Shown here in pieces: positions 53,942 to 63,927 of a stretch of DNA of 64,000 bases. The stretch covers positions 1,222,554-1,286,553 of the forward strand of contig JAVDKL010000001.1 in NCBI GenBank assembly GCA_030849965.1, written 5' to 3'. Below the pieces are notes generated by a model. It ran no database searches, was not told where the DNA came from, and worked only from the letters and a program-made list of their open reading frames with translations. A program made the position numbers and the translations under genes. This stretch comes from Schauerella fraxinea. Its GTDB lineage: Bacteria; Pseudomonadota; Gammaproteobacteria; Burkholderiales; Burkholderiaceae_B. The number at the start of each line of letters is the position of its first letter. Position 1 is the first letter of the stretch.

Positions 53942-53985
53942 CGCGACCGAGGCACTTGCCTCATCCGCCTCCTTGACAGCTTTGG

Positions 53986-54014
53986 AACAGCCGGCATCGC
54001 CCGGCTGTTTTTTT
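53986..54014 (+). terminator. Rho-independent terminator after bglX
   Basis: AACAGCCGG (53986-53994) pairs with CCGGCTGTT (54001-54009) around CATCGC and is followed by a run of T to 54014. It closes the ETF-QO/epimerase/bglX transcript. Confidence 0.9.
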
Positions 54015-54036
54015 GTCGGGTGCGACACCTAAAGGA

Positions 54037-55723: not shown

Positions 55724-58324
55724 ATGCCTAACTCGCTCACGCCGCATACGTCAGCCCGACCTCCGCGACACCCCATTCTGGCGGTGACGTTGGCGAGCTT
55801 GATCGTGCTCGTGCTGGCGCAGGCGCTGATCGGCTCGTTGAGTCTGGCGGCGTTGAATCGGCTGATGGCGCAAACCACGGCCGACCGGATCGAGGTCACC
55901 GCCCGCAGCCTGGGCGCGGAAATCCAGAACGGCTTGCGATTGGGTAAGCCGCTGGCGCAGTTTTTCGGCTTGGACGATATCCTGCGCAAGTCGTCGACGG
56001 GCGACCATCCTCCCTCGCTGCAAGTGGTTCAAGTCGACGGCACGGTACTCGCCAAGCGCCAGGGCGATGGCCGCATCGATACCGCCGGCGATGCGCAAGC
56101 CTTGCTCGCCGCACTGGCGCTGCCCGCCAAACGCGGGCACAGCCCGCCGCCCGACTCTCGCGAAACGCCCGTGCGGCTGCCCTCCGGCACCGCCATGATT
56201 GCGCGCGACCAAAGCGTGACGATCGCTGCCCCCTTGATGAACACCGCCGGCCAACTGACCGGCGCCATCATTGTCGACGTCGAGCGCAACGCCCTCGCCT
56301 GGCGCGAACTCGTGGTGCGCAATACCACCGTGCTGATTCTGGTGACGGCATGCGGCGGCTTGCTGCTGGCCGTGGGGTTTCGATTGTTTGCACCGTTCGG
56401 CAGTTCGACTGCGGGCAGCCGCGCTCGCTTCATCGTGCCGCTGGTGGCGATTCTGCTCGCGCAGGGCCTTTACGCGGCGTATACGATTTCCAATTTCCGC
56501 ACCGTGTGGCTACAGGTCACGCGCGAAAACGCCAATATGCTGGCCGAGGGGATGCAGCGCGACCTGAATCGGGTGCTGGGCTACGGCCTGAGCGTGGGAC
56601 AGCTGCGCGGACTGGAAGCCCCGTTCACGCGATTGCAAGCGTCGTTTCCAGCGATCGGACAAATCGCGGTGACTGACGCCAGCGGCAAAGTACTGGCGGT
56701 GAGCCGACTGCCGGACATGCCGAACCCTGGGCTGGATCTGCGGCCCGACCTGACGTTTTCACTGCCGTTGAACGATGCCAATCCGGCGCAATCGGCTGGG
56801 CAACTCAGCATCACGCTCAACGCCGCCATCATCGACGACGGTGTACGCAATCGCGTGATCGACGCCCTGACCGTGAGCGCCGTCGCGTTGATCACCGCGA
56901 TGGAAATGCTGATGCTGCTGTCGCTGTTGATGATTACCGGAACGCTGCCCACCCGGCGCGCCGCCGACGAAATCCTGCGGCAGGACGATCGCGGGCAAGC
57001 AGCGCTCGTCGGTCGACTGGCGCGCCCGGTGATGTTTTCGTTTCTGTTCGCCTGGGCCTTGCCGTTGGGCTTTTTGCCCGTGTATGCGCGCACATTGCCG
57101 CCCGGTGCATTGGATCTGCCGCCCAATCTGCTCATGGCGCTGCCGATCTCGATCGAGATGGCGTGCGGCTTGATCGCGGCGCTGCTGGCTGGTCGCCTGA
57201 CCGATCGGCGAGGCTGGCAAACCCCGGTGATCGCCGGGCTGGGCGTGGCTGCAGCGGGCATGCTGGCCTGCGCGCTTGCCGATACCTTGCTGGGTTTTGT
57301 GGCGTCGCGTGGCCTGGTGGGCTTTGGCTACGGACTCGCGTGGATGGGGTTGCAAGGGTTTATCGTGACGCGCAGCGCCCCGCAGGCGCGCGGCCGCAAT
57401 ATGACGAGCGTGATCGCCGGACTCTTTGCCGGGCACTTATCGGGCGCGGCCGTGGGCTCGATGCTGATGGAGCAAACGGGCTACCACACGGTATTCGTGG
57501 TGGGTGCGACGATGCTCATCCTGCCGCTCTGCGGCGTCTGGTTCTTGTTGCGCCCTTATATGACCGGGCCGCTCGCCGCCAAGGTCGGCGGCACGCCGCC
57601 CGTCAAGACCGAAGCAGGTGCCGCCGCAATGGCCCCCGCAGCGTCGGTCGCCATCACACCGGCGACCACATCGGCGACCACAGCGGCCCCCGCGCTGGCC
57701 GCCCCGCCGCATCGGCTGGCCGAAACGATCAAGCTGGTGTTTACACGCGACTTCGGCATGCTGCTGGCCGGCAGCATCGTGCCGTTCTCGATTGCCCAGG
57801 TGGGACTGATCTCGTTTGCGTTGCCGCTTTACCTCGAATCGCAGGGCGCCGCGGCATCCAGCGTGGGCCGCATTCTGATGCTCTACGGGCTGTGTGTGAT
57901 TTACGTGGGCCCCATCATGGGGCGCATTGCCGATCGCAGCGTCTCCAAGAAACGGTGGATCGTCGTGGGTGGCATGATCGGCAGCCTGGGACTCATGGCG
58001 CTTTACCTGAACAGCGGCATGCTCGCCGCCGCAGCGGCCGTGCTTTTGCTGGCGTTGGCGAGTTGCGCCAGCGGCGCGTCGCAATCGCCTTATATGTTGG
58101 GCCTGCCGCACGTGCAAGCCTACGGCGCGGCCGGTGCCACCAGCGTCATGCGCGCCGCGGACAAGCTGGGCCAGATGGCCGGACCCTTGATCGTCGGCGG
58201 CCTGTTTGGCGTGGTCGGCATGGGCACGGGGTTGGCCGCCACCGGCGCCATCTATTTGTGCGCGACACTCGCCTTCTGGGCGTTCGCACCCGCCGGTACC
58301 CCAAAAAAAGAATCGCTGACATGA
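55724..58324 (+). CDS. MFS transporter fused to two N-terminal sensor-like membrane modules
   Basis: An 866-residue chimera. TM1 (about 17-45), extracytoplasmic region 1 (about 46-190, with VVQVDGTVLAKRQGDG and IAAPLMNTAGQLTGAIIVDV, a Cache/PAS-like pattern), TM (about 200-220), TM (about 236-257), extracytoplasmic region 2 (about 258-375, with IGQIAVTDASGKVLAVS), TM (about 385-410), then a 12-TM MFS core (about 430-855) with LLAGRLTDRRGWQ (motif A). An Ala/Thr/Pro-rich insert (about 630-660) lengthens the central loop. Sensing fused directly to transport suggests ligand-gated uptake or export. It is followed by the Alr-like gene after 19 bp. Confidence 0.8.
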   Translation: MPNSLTPHTSARPPRHPILAVTLASLIVLVLAQALIGSLSLAALNRLMAQTTADRIEVTARSLGAEIQNGLRLGKPLAQFFGLDDILRKSSTGDHPPSLQVVQVDGTVLAKRQGDGRIDTAGDAQALLAALALPAKRGHSPPPDSRETPVRLPSGTAMIARDQSVTIAAPLMNTAGQLTGAIIVDVERNALAWRELVVRNTTVLILVTACGGLLLAVGFRLFAPFGSSTAGSRARFIVPLVAILLAQGLYAAYTISNFRTVWLQVTRENANMLAEGMQRDLNRVLGYGLSVGQLRGLEAPFTRLQASFPAIGQIAVTDASGKVLAVSRLPDMPNPGLDLRPDLTFSLPLNDANPAQSAGQLSITLNAAIIDDGVRNRVIDALTVSAVALITAMEMLMLLSLLMITGTLPTRRAADEILRQDDRGQAALVGRLARPVMFSFLFAWALPLGFLPVYARTLPPGALDLPPNLLMALPISIEMACGLIAALLAGRLTDRRGWQTPVIAGLGVAAAGMLACALADTLLGFVASRGLVGFGYGLAWMGLQGFIVTRSAPQARGRNMTSVIAGLFAGHLSGAAVGSMLMEQTGYHTVFVVGATMLILPLCGVWFLLRPYMTGPLAAKVGGTPPVKTEAGAAAMAPAASVAITPATTSATTAAPALAAPPHRLAETIKLVFTRDFGMLLAGSIVPFSIAQVGLISFALPLYLESQGAAASSVGRILMLYGLCVIYVGPIMGRIADRSVSKKRWIVVGGMIGSLGLMALYLNSGMLAAAAAVLLLALASCASGASQSPYMLGLPHVQAYGAAGATSVMRAADKLGQMAGPLIVGGLFGVVGMGTGLAATGAIYLCATLAFWAFAPAGTPKKESLT

Positions 58325-58343
58325 TCATCCCGGGAGAAAGCCT

Positions 58344-59489
58344 TTGACTGCAGCACTGCCGCTTTCCCTCTTTGCCAGCGAACGGGTATACGCCAGGATC
58401 TATCCACAGGCCGTTGCCAACAATCTCGCAGTGCTCAAGCGCACCCTGGCCCGCGACGGCGGCGCCCACGCACCACGCATCTGGGCCACGGTCAAAGCCG
58501 ATGCCTATGGGCATGGGGTGGCACAGATTCTGCCGGGCCTGCGTGACGCGGACGGACTGGCCGTCATGCACCTCACCGATGCGCACATCTGCCGCGATGC
58601 GGGCTGGTGCGGCCCGATTCTGGTGATGGCCGGCCTGGCGCACGCCTCGGAGATTGCATTACTCGACATGCCCGGCCTGCACTTGCTGCTATCGCGAGAG
58701 ACGCAATTGCAATGGCTGGCAGCGGCGCCTGTGCTGCGTGCGCCGCCCGCCATATGGCTGCGGTTTCGCGGCGACATCGGGATGATCGGCTTCGATGCCG
58801 ACACCTACCGGCAAGCCTTTGCGCAATGTCTGGCGCTGGCCAGCACCGGTCGTATCGGCGCGCACATCGGACACCTCAACCACTTCGGCAGCGCGGAGCG
58901 CGCGGATGGCATCGACGAGGCGTGCGCCCGCTTCACGGCCGTCGTGCATGATCTGCCCGGCCCCCGTTCCACGAGCAACTCCGCCGCGATCATGCGCCAT
59001 CAGGTCCATGCCGTGGCCACCGACTGGGTGCGACCCGGGTTGACGCTGTATGGCGCGAGCCCGCTCGCCGATCGCACTGCGGCCGACCTCGGCCTGCTGC
59101 CGGCGATGTCTTTACACGCCCGCATCCTGGATATCCGCACGCTGGCGGCCGGCGATCGGCTGGGCTATGGTGGCAGTTTCAAGGCGCCCATGCCGATGAC
59201 GGTCGGTTTGGTCAACTGCGGCTATGCCGACGGTTACCCGCGCCACGCGCCGGCGGGCACGCCGGTCATCGTGGCGGGTCAGCTCACGCGCACGTTGGGC
59301 GCGGTCACCATGGATTTGATGACGGTCGATCTCACCGGTCTGATCGCGGTCGTGGGCGCCCCCGTCGTGCTGTGGGGCGATCCCGCGCTGCCGGTCGAAC
59401 GTGTGGCGGCCGCCATGGGCACCATTGCCGCCGAACTGCTGACCGGTCTGACGCGCCGGGTGCCGTTGCTGACGGTACCGATGCGATGA
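58344..59489 (+). CDS. Alanine-racemase-fold PLP protein with altered active site
   Basis: A 381-residue fold-type III PLP enzyme. PLP Lys51 (TVKADAYGHG), opposite-face Tyr275 (GYGGSF), PLP-phosphate region SNSAAI (211-216) and Arg230 (VRPGLTLYG) are retained. The usual K-x-DTGM-x-RLGF segment reads RFRGDIGMIGF (140-150): the carbamylated-Lys position is Arg140 and the substrate-carboxylate Arg is Met147. It may racemise something other than alanine or act as a sensor. TTG start at 58344 behind a GGGAGA ribosome-binding site; no suitable ATG. Confidence 0.82.
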   Translation: MTAALPLSLFASERVYARIYPQAVANNLAVLKRTLARDGGAHAPRIWATVKADAYGHGVAQILPGLRDADGLAVMHLTDAHICRDAGWCGPILVMAGLAHASEIALLDMPGLHLLLSRETQLQWLAAAPVLRAPPAIWLRFRGDIGMIGFDADTYRQAFAQCLALASTGRIGAHIGHLNHFGSAERADGIDEACARFTAVVHDLPGPRSTSNSAAIMRHQVHAVATDWVRPGLTLYGASPLADRTAADLGLLPAMSLHARILDIRTLAAGDRLGYGGSFKAPMPMTVGLVNCGYADGYPRHAPAGTPVIVAGQLTRTLGAVTMDLMTVDLTGLIAVVGAPVVLWGDPALPVERVAAAMGTIAAELLTGLTRRVPLLTVPMR

Positions 59490-59556
59490 CTACCGCTTTA
59501 CCCCTACCGCCACCGCACACCGGCGCGGCCCCATCGATCACAGCAGGAAGCCGCTC

Positions 59557-60732
59557 ATGCGCCTCACCTCCGCCGCGTTAATGTTGTGTCTGGCGCTGTT
59601 TGCGCCCATTGCCGCACCCGCCCAACCCGCCCCCCCGCTGGCATTGCCCACAGCCGAGAAAGAAAAAGTGTTCCCGACCACGCCCCGGGCGCGGGCCGAC
59701 GGCAAACGCTGGCGATTGGGTTACTTCGAAAGCGGCGACTACAGCGAATATCCGCGCACGATGAAGGTGCTTATCGAGGGACTGGAGCAACTGGGCTGGA
59801 TCCAGATTCCCACCATCCCCGAAGGACTCGACGGCCATGCAACGTGGACGTTCATCGCGCGCAATGCCCGTAGCGACACAATAGAGTTCGTGGAAGACGC
59901 ATGGTGGCAGCCCGGCAACTTCGACCCCGTCAAACGCCCCGGCGTGCGCCAGGCCATTACCGAACGGCTCACGACCAAACACGATATCGATCTCATCATC
60001 GCGATGGGCACCTGGGCCGGCCAGGACATGGCGACGTTGGGCGCGCCGGTACCCACCATCGTGGGCTCCACCAGCGATGCCGTCGGCGCGAAAATCGTGA
60101 AGAGCGCCGAAGACAGCGGATATGACAACCTGCATGCGCGCGTGCAGCCGGAACGGTATCAACGGCAGATTCGGTTGTTTCACGAAATCGTGCCGTTCAA
60201 AACGCTCGGACTGGTCTACGAAAACAGCCCTGAAGGCCGCACGTATGCCGCCGTCGATGCCGCGACCCAGGTGGCTGCCGAACTCGGTTTTGCGATCCGC
60301 AGTTGCGACGCCCGCTCAAACGGTATCGACCTGGAACTGGCCAAGCGCAATGTGCAGGAGTGCTACCGCGAGGTGAGCCAACAATCGGATGCCGTGTATG
60401 TGACGGTGCATCGCGGACTCACGCCCGATAATGTGGGCACGGTAGCGAACATTCTGCGCGAGGCCAAGGTGCCCAGCTTCGCCATGCTCGGATCGGAAGA
60501 AGTGAAGAAGGGCCTGCTGATGAGTTTGGCGCAGGCCGATTATTCCTACGTCGGCCTTTTCTATGCCGAAAACATCGCCCGCATCTTCAATGGCGCACAA
60601 CCGCGCTCGCTGAGCCAGATCTGGATCGATCCGGCCAAAATCGCGCTCAATATCGAAACCGCGCGCATCATCGGCTTCGATCCGCCCGTCGATATTCTGC
60701 TGGCGGCCGATGAAGTGTACGAGGGACGATAA
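59557..60732 (+). CDS. ABC_sub_bind-type periplasmic binding protein
   Basis: A 391-residue secreted type 1 periplasmic-binding-fold protein (ABC_sub_bind/TrpX-like family). A signal peptide (residues 1-22, ending APAQ) precedes WRLGYFESGDYSEYPRTMKVLIEGL, DLIIAMGTWAGQDMA, PTIVGSTSDAVGAKIVKS and VYVTVHRGLTPDNV. No ABC permease or ATPase is adjacent. It could present a ligand to the extracytoplasmic sensor regions of the MFS fusion encoded two genes upstream; that is inference. Confidence 0.82.
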   Translation: MRLTSAALMLCLALFAPIAAPAQPAPPLALPTAEKEKVFPTTPRARADGKRWRLGYFESGDYSEYPRTMKVLIEGLEQLGWIQIPTIPEGLDGHATWTFIARNARSDTIEFVEDAWWQPGNFDPVKRPGVRQAITERLTTKHDIDLIIAMGTWAGQDMATLGAPVPTIVGSTSDAVGAKIVKSAEDSGYDNLHARVQPERYQRQIRLFHEIVPFKTLGLVYENSPEGRTYAAVDAATQVAAELGFAIRSCDARSNGIDLELAKRNVQECYREVSQQSDAVYVTVHRGLTPDNVGTVANILREAKVPSFAMLGSEEVKKGLLMSLAQADYSYVGLFYAENIARIFNGAQPRSLSQIWIDPAKIALNIETARIIGFDPPVDILLAADEVYEGR

Positions 60733-61407: not shown

Positions 61408-61755
61408 TCAACCGCAACGCACATCGGTGATCGCGCCCTGGGCATCGATCAACACATTCAGGCGGCTTGGGTTGTATTCCATGGTGATCATCTCACCCGG
61501 CTTGAGCACACGCGCCGACCCCGAACCCGATTGGGTGCGCAACTGATCGAGCACCGACTGGGAGATGGCCGTGCCGATGCCTTTCTGCACCGCGCCGCTA
61601 TTGCACTCGCCCGCTTGCCCCGGCGCGCCCGACACCATGCCGGGACTGCGACCGGTATCACCCGCCGCGCTCGCTGGCGTGGGAGACCCCGACTTCATCA
61701 TCGAGCAGCCCGCCAAGCCGACCACAGCCGCCATCGTAATGAGTTTCCAAGTCAT
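61408..61755 (-). CDS. I78-family peptidase inhibitor lipoprotein
   Basis: A 115-residue lipoprotein: signal peptide with lipobox LAGC (Cys17), a flexible Ser/Pro/Gly-rich spacer, then a domain with ECNSGAVQKGIGTAISQ and the C-terminal YNPSRLNVLIDAQGAITDVRCG that fits the Inhibitor I78 family. It likely protects the periplasm from serine proteases. It lies 24 bp after the flavin reductase start on the same strand, so it precedes that gene in a shared transcript. Confidence 0.82.
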   Translation of the reverse strand: MTWKLITMAAVVGLAGCSMMKSGSPTPASAAGDTGRSPGMVSGAPGQAGECNSGAVQKGIGTAISQSVLDQLRTQSGSGSARVLKPGEMITMEYNPSRLNVLIDAQGAITDVRCG

Positions 61756-62340: not shown

Positions 62341-63927
62341 ATGGCACTACGCTTCAAACGCGCTCTAGCGTACGGCTCGGCCGCCGTTTTTCTTGCCATG
62401 GGAGCCGCCGGTTCGGCTTGGGCTCGCGACCTCACGATCGCACTCAAAACCGAGCCCAGCGCCATGGACCCGCAATACCACGCGCTCACGCCCAACAACC
62501 AGATCGCCCAAACGATCTTCGACCCGATGATCCTGCTGGACAAGGATCTCAAGCCGCAACCCGGTCTGGCCGAATCCTGGACGGTGGATGGCAAAGTGTG
62601 GACGTTCAAGTTGCGCCCGAACGTCAAGTTTTCCGACGGCACGCCCTTTACGGCCGAAGACGTGGTCTTCACCTACGACCGTATCCCGAAGGTGCCCAAT
62701 AGCCCGTCGCCCTTCACGCTCTACCTCGGTTCGGTCGCCAAGACCGAAGCGGTGGATCCGATGACCGTGCGCATCACCACCAAGGAGCCGTCGCCCTTGC
62801 TGTTGGTGAATCTGGCGCAATTGCCCATCCTGTCCAAGAAAGCGGCATCGGGTCCGGCTGCCGAAGGCAAGACCACCATGCAGCTCAACAGCGGCGATGG
62901 CTTGATCGGCACTGGTCCTTATAAATTCGTCTCCTGGCAGCGCGGTTCGGAATTCATCCTGGCCCGCAATGATAACTACTGGGGTGCCAAGCCTACGTGG
63001 GATCGCGTCATCTATCGTCCGATGACCAATCCCGCTGCGCGCGTCGCGGCGCTCCTGGCCGGCAACGTCGACATGATCGAAGATCCCCCAACGGACGATC
63101 TGCCCGCGCTGAAGAAGAACAAGGCGCTGGCCGTTGAAGAAACGCCTTCGGTGCGCACGGTGTACGTGGCACTGGACCAGTTTGCCGAACCCAGCCCCGG
63201 CATCAAAGGCACCGACAAAAACCCGCTGAAAGACAAGCGCGTGCGTGAAGCGCTGTCGCTGGCGATCAATCGCGACGCCATCGTCGAACGCGTGATGGGC
63301 GGCGTGGCCCTCGGCGCCGGCCAGATGCTGCCGTACCCGATGTTCGGCGCCTCCAAGGCGCACTCGGTGCCCCCTAAGGCGGATATCGAGAAGGCCAAGA
63401 AGTTGCTGGCCGATGCCGGTTATCCCAACGGCTTCGAGATCACGCTGGGTTCGCCGTCGGGCCGTTACGTCAACGACTCGAAGGTCGCCCAAGCGGTGGC
63501 CGGCATGTGGAGCCGGATCGGTGTGAAGACCAGTGTCGACGCCATGGCGCCGCCGGTGTTCTTCAAGAACCGCGACAGCTACGCGTTCAGCGCTTACCTG
63601 GCCGGCTGGTCGGTGTCGACCGGCGAAATGTCCAATGCCCTGTCGTCGCTGCTGGTCACACCCAATCCGGCCGCCGGCCTGGGCACGACCAACCGCAGCC
63701 GTTACTCCAACCCCAAGATGGATGAGCTCGTCGCCCAATCCGGATCGGTGATGGATGACGGCAAGCGCGCCGAAATGCTCCAGCAGGCAAGCGATCTGGC
63801 GATGAACGACTACGCCATGTTGCCGTTGCATTACGAACTGTCGGTCTGGGCCATGAAGAACGACATCCAGTACCAGGGTCGTCCGGATCAGGTCACGCTG
63901 GCGCAGTTCGCTACGCTCAAGAAGTAA
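62341..63927 (+). CDS. Oligopeptide/dipeptide-type ABC periplasmic binding protein
   Basis: A 528-residue SBP_bac_5 protein with a signal peptide (residues 1-28, ending AWA). ALKTEPSAMDPQYHALTPNN, LRPNVKFSDGTPFTAEDVVFTYDR, GTGPYKFVSWQRGSEF and VREALSLAINRDAIVERVM are the family landmarks. A GGAG precedes the ATG by 7 bp. Permease and ATPase genes, if linked, would lie beyond the window. Not closely similar to GsiB, so it probably serves a different importer. Confidence 0.92.
   Translation: MALRFKRALAYGSAAVFLAMGAAGSAWARDLTIALKTEPSAMDPQYHALTPNNQIAQTIFDPMILLDKDLKPQPGLAESWTVDGKVWTFKLRPNVKFSDGTPFTAEDVVFTYDRIPKVPNSPSPFTLYLGSVAKTEAVDPMTVRITTKEPSPLLLVNLAQLPILSKKAASGPAAEGKTTMQLNSGDGLIGTGPYKFVSWQRGSEFILARNDNYWGAKPTWDRVIYRPMTNPAARVAALLAGNVDMIEDPPTDDLPALKKNKALAVEETPSVRTVYVALDQFAEPSPGIKGTDKNPLKDKRVREALSLAINRDAIVERVMGGVALGAGQMLPYPMFGASKAHSVPPKADIEKAKKLLADAGYPNGFEITLGSPSGRYVNDSKVAQAVAGMWSRIGVKTSVDAMAPPVFFKNRDSYAFSAYLAGWSVSTGEMSNALSSLLVTPNPAAGLGTTNRSRYSNPKMDELVAQSGSVMDDGKRAEMLQQASDLAMNDYAMLPLHYELSVWAMKNDIQYQGRPDQVTLAQFATLKK

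Follow-up and report, generated by a model that had tools for sequence, protein, structure and literature searches.

The window, i.e., the whole stretch of 64,000 nucleotides analyzed here from Schauerella fraxinea (contig JAVDKL010000001.1, positions 1,222,554 to 1,286,553), carries four co-directional genes in the order btrM-btrO-alr-btrN, which encode a carboxylate-amine ligase of the GCS2 family, a major facilitator superfamily (MFS) transporter with predicted sensor domains, an alanine-racemase-family enzyme using pyridoxal phosphate (PLP), and a binding protein of the ABC_sub_bind family (Table 1). The original prediction, which was made from the sequence alone, described the last three as an unusual unit and offered, as one reading, that a binding protein presents a ligand, made or removed by the racemase-fold enzyme, to a sensor-gated transporter. 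Pfam assigned these three open reading frames (ORFs), at exactly the positions given there, to MFS_1, alanine racemase and ABC_sub_bind; the observation is therefore confirmed, and the interpretation is partly supported. Beyond these three genes, the GCS2-type ligase gene belongs with the unit as well, since it accompanies it in other genomes and lies 131 bases upstream of the btrO-like gene.

A btr-type unit under purifying selection

According to Table 3 of PMC7498569, the Bordetella btr locus encodes the STAS protein BtrV, the kinase BtrW, alr, the MFS protein BtrO, the SpoIIE phosphatase BtrU, BtrN (labeled "ABC transporter"), BtrM (labeled "gamma-glutamylcysteine synthetase"), BtrA and BtrS, and the same table gives alr, BtrO, BtrN and BtrM as function unknown. 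The same paper describes as yet unknown the mechanism by which BtrU, BtrV and BtrW control type III secretion in Bordetella; it was the only one found in a literature search on Bordetella btrO, btrN and btrM. In B. pertussis, BP2229-BP2233 form one expression group and alr groups with blood-responsive secretion genes, as given in PMC7828420, and BtrV phosphorylation was stated to govern BtrW binding in Bordetella in PMC8256260.

All seven named Bordetella loci whose context is complete (L041, L047, L050, L051, L054, L076 and L077) show the order V-W-alr-O-U-N-M, and, because the families of the published table recur there in this order, the window unit matches btrM-btrO-alr-btrN by family and gene order. 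The BtrO, BtrN, BtrM and Alr families are likewise clustered in the window, whereas BtrU, BtrV and BtrW are missing at the locus, the order is M-O-alr-N with all genes in one direction, and the genome has no SctV over the cut-off; BtrA and BtrS fall outside this comparison. Thus, the earlier remark that no characterized system with this composition was known is not supported, and the unit is a stripped-down counterpart of the known btr locus in an Achromobacter relative rather than something without precedent.

The ratios of nonsynonymous to synonymous substitution (dN/dS, Nei-Gojobori) between the window and its sister species (L028) are 0.094 for btrM, 0.059 for btrO, 0.125 for alr and 0.045 for btrN, with 0.040 for the flanking flavin reductase as a control. 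With values of 0.045-0.125 for all four genes, the unit is under purifying selection.

Proteins encoded by the unit

BtrO possesses an MFS_1 core (PF07690, 79.8 bits against a cut-off of 33.4, residues 437-791) with the loops GRLTDRRGW and MGRIADRS, which we take to be motif-A-like, and an arginine (R529) that is invariant in 52 aligned rows. It reaches no NCBIfam cut-off, and the best NCBIfam match of its MFS core is the multidrug-resistance superfamily model TIGR00880 (44.9 bits, under the cut-off of 131). The MFS core and the conserved motif-A-like loops are common to BtrO and this drug-efflux type, whereas BtrO adds an N-terminal extension of four long helices, taken as transmembrane, which hold two sensor domains. 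In sequence, these domains match dCache_1 only faintly (23-26 bits, with 23.4 in the Pfam scan, against a cut-off of 45). The AlphaFold2 model of the whole protein, built on the 52 rows, has a predicted local distance difference test score (pLDDT) of 85.2 and a predicted template modeling score (pTM) of 0.86, and that of residues 1-428 alone has a pLDDT of 85.6 and a pTM of 0.77. The two loops between the long helices were each modeled as a helix-plus-sheet PAS/Cache arrangement, the first flanked by long helices at residues 17-72 and 190-222.

Structural comparison by VIA-align superposed residues 46-187 on 3cwf with Z 11.6 and a root-mean-square deviation (rmsd) of 2.6 over 107 residues, and about the same residues on CitA, WalK and DcuS with Z 10-11 and on LuxQ with Z 8.9, some of the matched LuxQ entries being complexes with LuxP. 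Residues 261-367 were superposed on 4onx with Z 10.0 and rmsd 2.8 over 100 residues. The fold assignment is limited to families among the matches listed, which cover only residues 27-200 widely; as few of them reach residues 261-367, the assignment of the second domain rests on few rows. The top VIA-align match, 9a5d (Z 11.8, rmsd 43), was disregarded as an integrative model, and Foldseek alone gave a single match with E ≤ 0.001, an integrative WalK model. Taken together, BtrO is predicted to be an MFS transporter fused to two extracytoplasmic PAS/Cache sensor domains, which is clearer by fold than by sequence; the regions that had been called sensor-like before thus do model as globular domains. 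In literature searches for such an MFS-Cache fusion transporter, no report of one was found among the papers listed.

Alr carries both racemase domains over their cut-offs (Ala_racemase_N, 134.9 bits; Ala_racemase_C, 117.9 bits) and scores 251.4 bits against a cut-off of 168 with the curated model TIGR00492. Alignments to DadX/Alr provided the register for 33 rows, i.e., the window and 32 of the 39 alr-bearing loci, in all of which the PLP lysine K51 and the tyrosine Y275 are retained. The domains, the PLP lysine, the catalytic tyrosine and the M-D motif are common to btr-type Alr and to Alr/DadX (TIGR00492; 1rcq, 2rjg). However, position 140, equivalent to K129, is arginine in 33/33 rows, and position 147, equivalent to R136, is histidine in 23, leucine in six and methionine in four. 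K129 and R136 (Geobacillus numbering) are presumably the carbamylated lysine and the arginine holding the substrate carboxylate in alanine racemase. As a control, another Alr of the genome (L001), which is 43.5% identical to the btr-type one, keeps KLNTGMNRLG including both positions. The description of this protein as a diverged racemase therefore holds for the substrate site but not for the family score, and btr-type Alr probably still performs PLP chemistry, on a different or differently held substrate.

BtrN belongs by profile to the same family as the PF04392 binding proteins TrpX, 3lft, 3lkv and 6hni (59.6 bits against a cut-off of 25.9; its profile search matches the latter three structures), but it scores only 60.3 bits with the TrpX equivalog model, far below the 390 needed, and has no adjacent ABC partner. 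A Sec-type signal without a lipobox was read by eye at its start. Eight ORFs between 50724 and 63927 were scanned with Pfam, and neither a permease nor an ATPase of the ABC type was found among them, in agreement with the earlier description of an orphan binding protein. BtrM reaches 53.1 bits with PF04107 (cut-off 21) and 16-26 bits with five models of the glutamate-cysteine ligase, EgtA and YbdK kinds (cut-offs 176-463), those for EgtA, YbdK and the plant ligase giving 21-26 bits, and a profile of 40 members matches the plant ligase structure 2gwc with E 1.8e-10.

Table 1. Features of the btr-type unit in the window
Feature	Position	Strand	Basis
btrM-like gene, GCS2 (PF04107) ATP-dependent carboxylate-amine/glutamate-cysteine-ligase-type enzyme, 518 aa	54036..55592	+	PF04107; BP2232 BtrM by family and order
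btrO-like gene, MFS transporter with two predicted N-terminal extracytoplasmic sensor domains, 866 aa	55724..58324	+	Pfam and AlphaFold2; BP2229 BtrO by family and order
BtrO, predicted first extracytoplasmic PAS/Cache domain, residues 46-187	55859..56284	+	AlphaFold2 model, VIA-align to 3cwf
BtrO, predicted second extracytoplasmic PAS/Cache domain, residues 261-367	56504..56824	+	VIA-align to 4onx; few of 50 rows cover it
BtrO, MFS core, about residues 434-856	57023..58291	+	PF07690 over cut-off; conservation in 52 rows
btr-type alr, alanine-racemase-family PLP enzyme, 381 aa, TTG start	58344..59489	+	TIGR00492
Alr, altered substrate-site stretch R140-M147, RFRGDIGM	58761..58784	+	alignment to DadX/Alr (KxDSGMxR or KxDTGMxR)
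btrN-like gene, ABC_sub_bind (PF04392) binding protein, 391 aa	59557..60732	+	Pfam; BP2231 BtrN by family and order

Six bases past the btrN-like gene, a flavin-reductase gene in convergent orientation comes to its end, and genes for an I78-type peptidase inhibitor (61408-61755) and a family 5 solute-binding protein (62341-63927) lie downstream. A scan for promoters and terminators gave no excess over shuffles. An inverted repeat (AACAGCCGG/CCGGCTGTT) with T residues at about 53985-54015, before btrM, looks by eye like a terminator of the upstream gene and is absent from the scan listing. The four proteins had no PADLOC match at E ≤ 1e-5, and a defense system was rejected. A plasmid origin was also rejected: 11 plasmid records match only the racemase or the binding-protein part, at 60-80% identity, and none covers 80% of the query. 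The 489-kb plasmid NZ_CP006368.1 of Aureimonas sp. AU20 carries at 97731-98462 a binding-protein gene with 64% DNA identity to the window btrN.

Distribution of the locus and its link to type III secretion

A survey of the window genome and 60 relatives detected the MFS protein (E ≤ 1e-20) in 12/61 genomes. The 11 loci of 19 kb taken from the other genomes contain the binding protein in 11/11 cases, the racemase in 10/11 and the GCS2 protein in 10/11, showing that the clustering first noticed in the window is conserved. A SpoIIE-type phosphatase gene lies between the MFS and binding-protein genes in ten of these loci and is missing at that of the sister species of the window; an RsbW-like kinase is encoded in nine and a STAS protein in seven. 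In the one BtrU scanned (L032), Cache and SpoIIE/PP2C domains exceed the cut-off, and HAMP is matched weakly, at 18.2 of the 25 bits required.

When species genomes were searched with the MFS alignment, through two short peptide patterns and hence not exhaustively, 58 loci were obtained. Their hosts include Achromobacter, Bordetella, Candidimonas, Pusillimonas, Paralcaligenes, Verticiella and their relatives and, more distantly, Azospirillum, Aureimonas, Tianweitania, Methylobacterium, Rhodobacteraceae, Chitinilyticum and Desulfobulbaceae/Desulfobacterales. At distances of up to about 10 kb from BtrO (tblastn, E ≤ 1e-8; several loci end at contig ends), BtrN was found in 50/58 loci, BtrU in 48, BtrM and the kinase in 41 each, the racemase in 39, all of them Alcaligenaceae, and the STAS protein in 38. 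BtrM occurs elsewhere in the genome for 12 further loci, so that it accompanies BtrO in 53 of the 57 loci tested (L052 is outside this test); it was not found for L074, L090, L093 and L096. In an order-wide search of 399 Burkholderiales genomes, two had the MFS protein, and the same two had BtrM; 13 of the listed genomes belong to the family of the window, and misses in this search are weak evidence because only two to three candidates per genome were scored.

The racemase counts bear on the proposal of a D-amino-acid ligand that Alr produces or eliminates. Its presence near BtrO at 39/58 loci, the lysine and tyrosine retained in 33/33 rows and the TIGR00492 score would fit this, but the K129 and R136 positions, changed throughout, argue against ordinary alanine racemization, and btr-type alr is absent at all 16 loci outside Alcaligenaceae (several end at contig ends; the search covered the loci and not the rest of those genomes) as well as at three within (L066, L073 and L075). 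Since BtrO, BtrN and BtrM mostly persist at these 19 loci, a D-amino-acid ligand, as originally suggested, is weakly founded, and we consider it very unlikely.

In Achromobacter, BtrM was detected in 13/13 genomes tested, in eight of which it lies 2.5-5.4 kb from SctV on the same contig. A loss of btrM in this genus was therefore rejected; the gene is merely farther off, beyond SctV in Achromobacter Root83 (G004/L053), where contig C25 carries btrO at 351827-354265, btrN at about 356.4-357.6 kb (L031), SctV at 378478-380523 and btrM at 385918-387384. SctV, and presumably the block for the type III secretion system (T3SS), lies between btrN and btrM in this strain, unlike the order of the B. 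pertussis table, in which btrM adjoins btrN. The btrM match of A. deleyi (G065, contig C6, 109039-110505) contains an internal TGA, and the other 13 matches are stop-free.

Other genes were also observed near btr loci. A xanthine/uracil-type permease gene (PF00860 in L032) lies beside the kinase gene in 13/58 loci, e.g., at L082:14008, and is followed in some loci by genes that we take to be pxpB/pxpC. Genes for nonribosomal peptide synthetases (NRPS) adjoin the locus on either side in Candidimonas, Paralcaligenes, Pusillimonas and kin; loci with such neighbors are L033, L035-L037, L055, L056, L058, L062, L063, L069, L079, L081 and L083, and Pfam identified condensation, peptidyl carrier protein, thioesterase and AMP-binding domains in L033, L035 and L037, with a phosphopantetheinyl transferase in L037. 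Because NRPS genes were counted at only 9/58 loci, the idea of an NRPS-linked biosynthetic cluster was set aside.

The window genome encodes SpoIIE proteins, but none of BtrU type was found among them; its best match scored 84 bits in the family search, against 177-192 bits in ten relatives, and 63.5 bits with a BtrU profile. In 12 genomes searched with this profile, full-length matches of more than 800 bits occur in six, of which L050, L080 and L086 have BtrU at the locus and L070, L093 and L095 were not seen to have it there. No full-length BtrU was found in the window genome, L039, L084, L088, L089 or L090, and all of these except L090 nevertheless have BtrO, BtrN and BtrM; in L089, numerous other PP2C proteins occur, the best of them at 156 bits. 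Neither BtrW nor BtrV is encoded at the window locus, to which the STAS search was confined. HATPase_c_2 proteins elsewhere in the window genome reach at best 54 bits. Ten relatives reach 62-77 bits, and in G011, which is among these, the best match lies some 50 kb away from the locus.

As for the secretion system itself, followed here through a single T3SS family, SctV (TIGR01399), the best protein of the window genome scores 581 bits against a cut-off of 692, in the range of flagellar-type matches, and Root83 alone among 12 genomes exceeds the cut-off. A. aestuarii likewise has no BtrU-type phosphatase and no SctV over the cut-off. When 50 of the 58 loci were submitted and 49 genomes searched, SctV exceeded the cut-off in 20 genomes with the locus, and 29 were without it. 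A SctV/FlhA-type protein of L089 (G106, C12:25888-27906) lies just under the cut-off at 676.7 bits and could belong to a divergent T3SS or a flagellum.

These labels were mapped on a quick BtrO tree (LG+G4, 52 rows, support by the SH-aLRT test only, rooted by choice on L090 and L096, with long-branch warnings). One clade with support 99 comprises 16 of the 17 T3SS-labeled rows, one untested row and the window pair, whose placement within these 19 rows is unsure (84). The remaining T3SS row, L071, is a metagenome-assembled genome outside the clade, and the other tested outer rows are without SctV over the cut-off (four outer rows were untested); the label needs at least three changes on the tree. 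The T3SS link thus appears to be confined mostly to one inner clade, and from the tree we infer that the BtrU/BtrV/BtrW relay was lost in the window lineage. With 29/49 genomes without SctV over the cut-off and five with BtrO, BtrN and BtrM but without full-length BtrU, the distribution suggests that BtrO, BtrN, BtrM and Alr are not T3SS parts and that BtrN/BtrO form a ligand-sensing transport core predating the association with the T3SS. The absence of a BtrU-type phosphatase and of SctV over the cut-off from the genome, and of BtrV and BtrW from the locus, could also be expected if the unit were a now functionless, decaying leftover of a locus for T3SS regulation. However, the dN/dS values of all four genes contradict decay, and the 29 genomes carry the locus likewise without SctV over the cut-off; such a remnant is extremely improbable.

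Proposed function of the btr-type unit

We propose that the orphan btrM-btrO-alr-btrN operon represents the sensor/transport half of a Bordetella-type btr locus, a proposal to which, with the mechanism that follows, we give an even chance. In the periplasm, BtrN would bind a small ligand, probably of amino-acid type, and would dock on the PAS/Cache domains of BtrO, as LuxP does on LuxQ, and also on the Cache-bearing PP2C phosphatase BtrU where present. Docking would switch BtrO between transport states, BtrM would join the transported molecule or a precursor to a carboxylate such as glutamate, and Alr, an accessory in Alcaligenaceae loci, would epimerize a related substrate. Where the locus is complete, BtrU activity, and with it BtrV phosphorylation, would also depend on this ligand state.

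The five genomes with BtrO, BtrN and BtrM but without full-length BtrU leave BtrO as the only locus-encoded Cache-type protein for BtrN, in line with the link between binding protein and sensor regions that had been suggested at the outset. Since BtrN persists with BtrO in genomes that lack BtrU, and since two Cache-type domains of BtrO are predicted to lie in the periplasm, BtrN most likely presents its ligand to these domains in the manner of LuxP and LuxQ. A binding protein and extracytoplasmic PAS/Cache domains are common to both systems, and LuxQ is among the fold matches of BtrO, whereas in BtrO an MFS core takes the position of the histidine kinase and BtrN belongs to PF04392, so that the comparison concerns only how the systems would work.

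Several points weigh against the sensor/transport proposal. Many Cache domains sense directly and need no binding protein, and BtrN might act in scavenging or work with an ABC transporter encoded elsewhere. A Cache sequence-profile match at E ≤ 0.01 was obtained for only 3/52 BtrO members. BtrN was not seen at eight of the 58 loci (L052, L057, L064, L070, L090, L093, L095 and L096; at least four lie at contig ends), of which L090 has BtrO alone and L096 BtrO and BtrU only. The BP22xx names rest on family and gene order and not on direct alignment to B. pertussis or B. bronchiseptica, and we infer, rather than observe, the docking of BtrN on BtrO, the gating, the ligand class, the roles of BtrM and Alr and the direction of transport.

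Alternatively, the unit might serve nutrient uptake, with BtrN capturing an amine or amino acid, BtrO acting as a ligand-gated importer, BtrM gamma-glutamylating the substrate in the cytoplasm and Alr interconverting isomers, and signaling elsewhere being a side branch. The solved relatives of BtrN (3lkv, 6hni and 3lft), which we take to be aromatic amino acid binders, would agree with uptake, and so would genes beside some relatives' loci that we take to be pxpB/pxpC (5-oxoprolinase), as these would fit gamma-glutamyl turnover. However, the pxp-like genes occur at only some loci, the best NCBIfam model for the MFS core is of the multidrug-resistance type, itself under its cut-off, and we know of no binding-protein-dependent MFS importer; we regard uptake as possible but doubtful.

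The weakly efflux-like MFS core would suit a loop of synthesis, export and sensing, in which BtrM makes a small gamma-glutamyl signal for Cache-controlled export by BtrO, with BtrN as the periplasmic receptor and BtrU as the transducer, leaving the window with a sender and receptor but no read-out. The frequencies given above for the ligase-type BtrM (53/57), the receptor-type BtrN (50/58) and the Cache phosphatase (48/58) near or with BtrO are consistent with such a loop, but purifying selection would not be expected to persist on a sender that has no read-out, unless it is used otherwise; we consider this loop improbable. In a broader form, BtrM-BtrN-BtrO would be an ancient free-standing device for synthesis, export and sensing, with the partner-switching phosphatase as a common read-out and the T3SS as a late client in Bordetella and Achromobacter. 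This, too, seems rather unlikely to us; if true, the btr locus would be a chemical-signaling system captured for virulence control.

Returning to the sensor/transport half proposed above, the fusion of Cache sensors to an MFS transporter would represent an unusual mode of transport regulation. Finally, the window genome and A. aestuarii offer a stripped-down setting in which the btr genes of unknown function can be studied without the relay or the secretion system.

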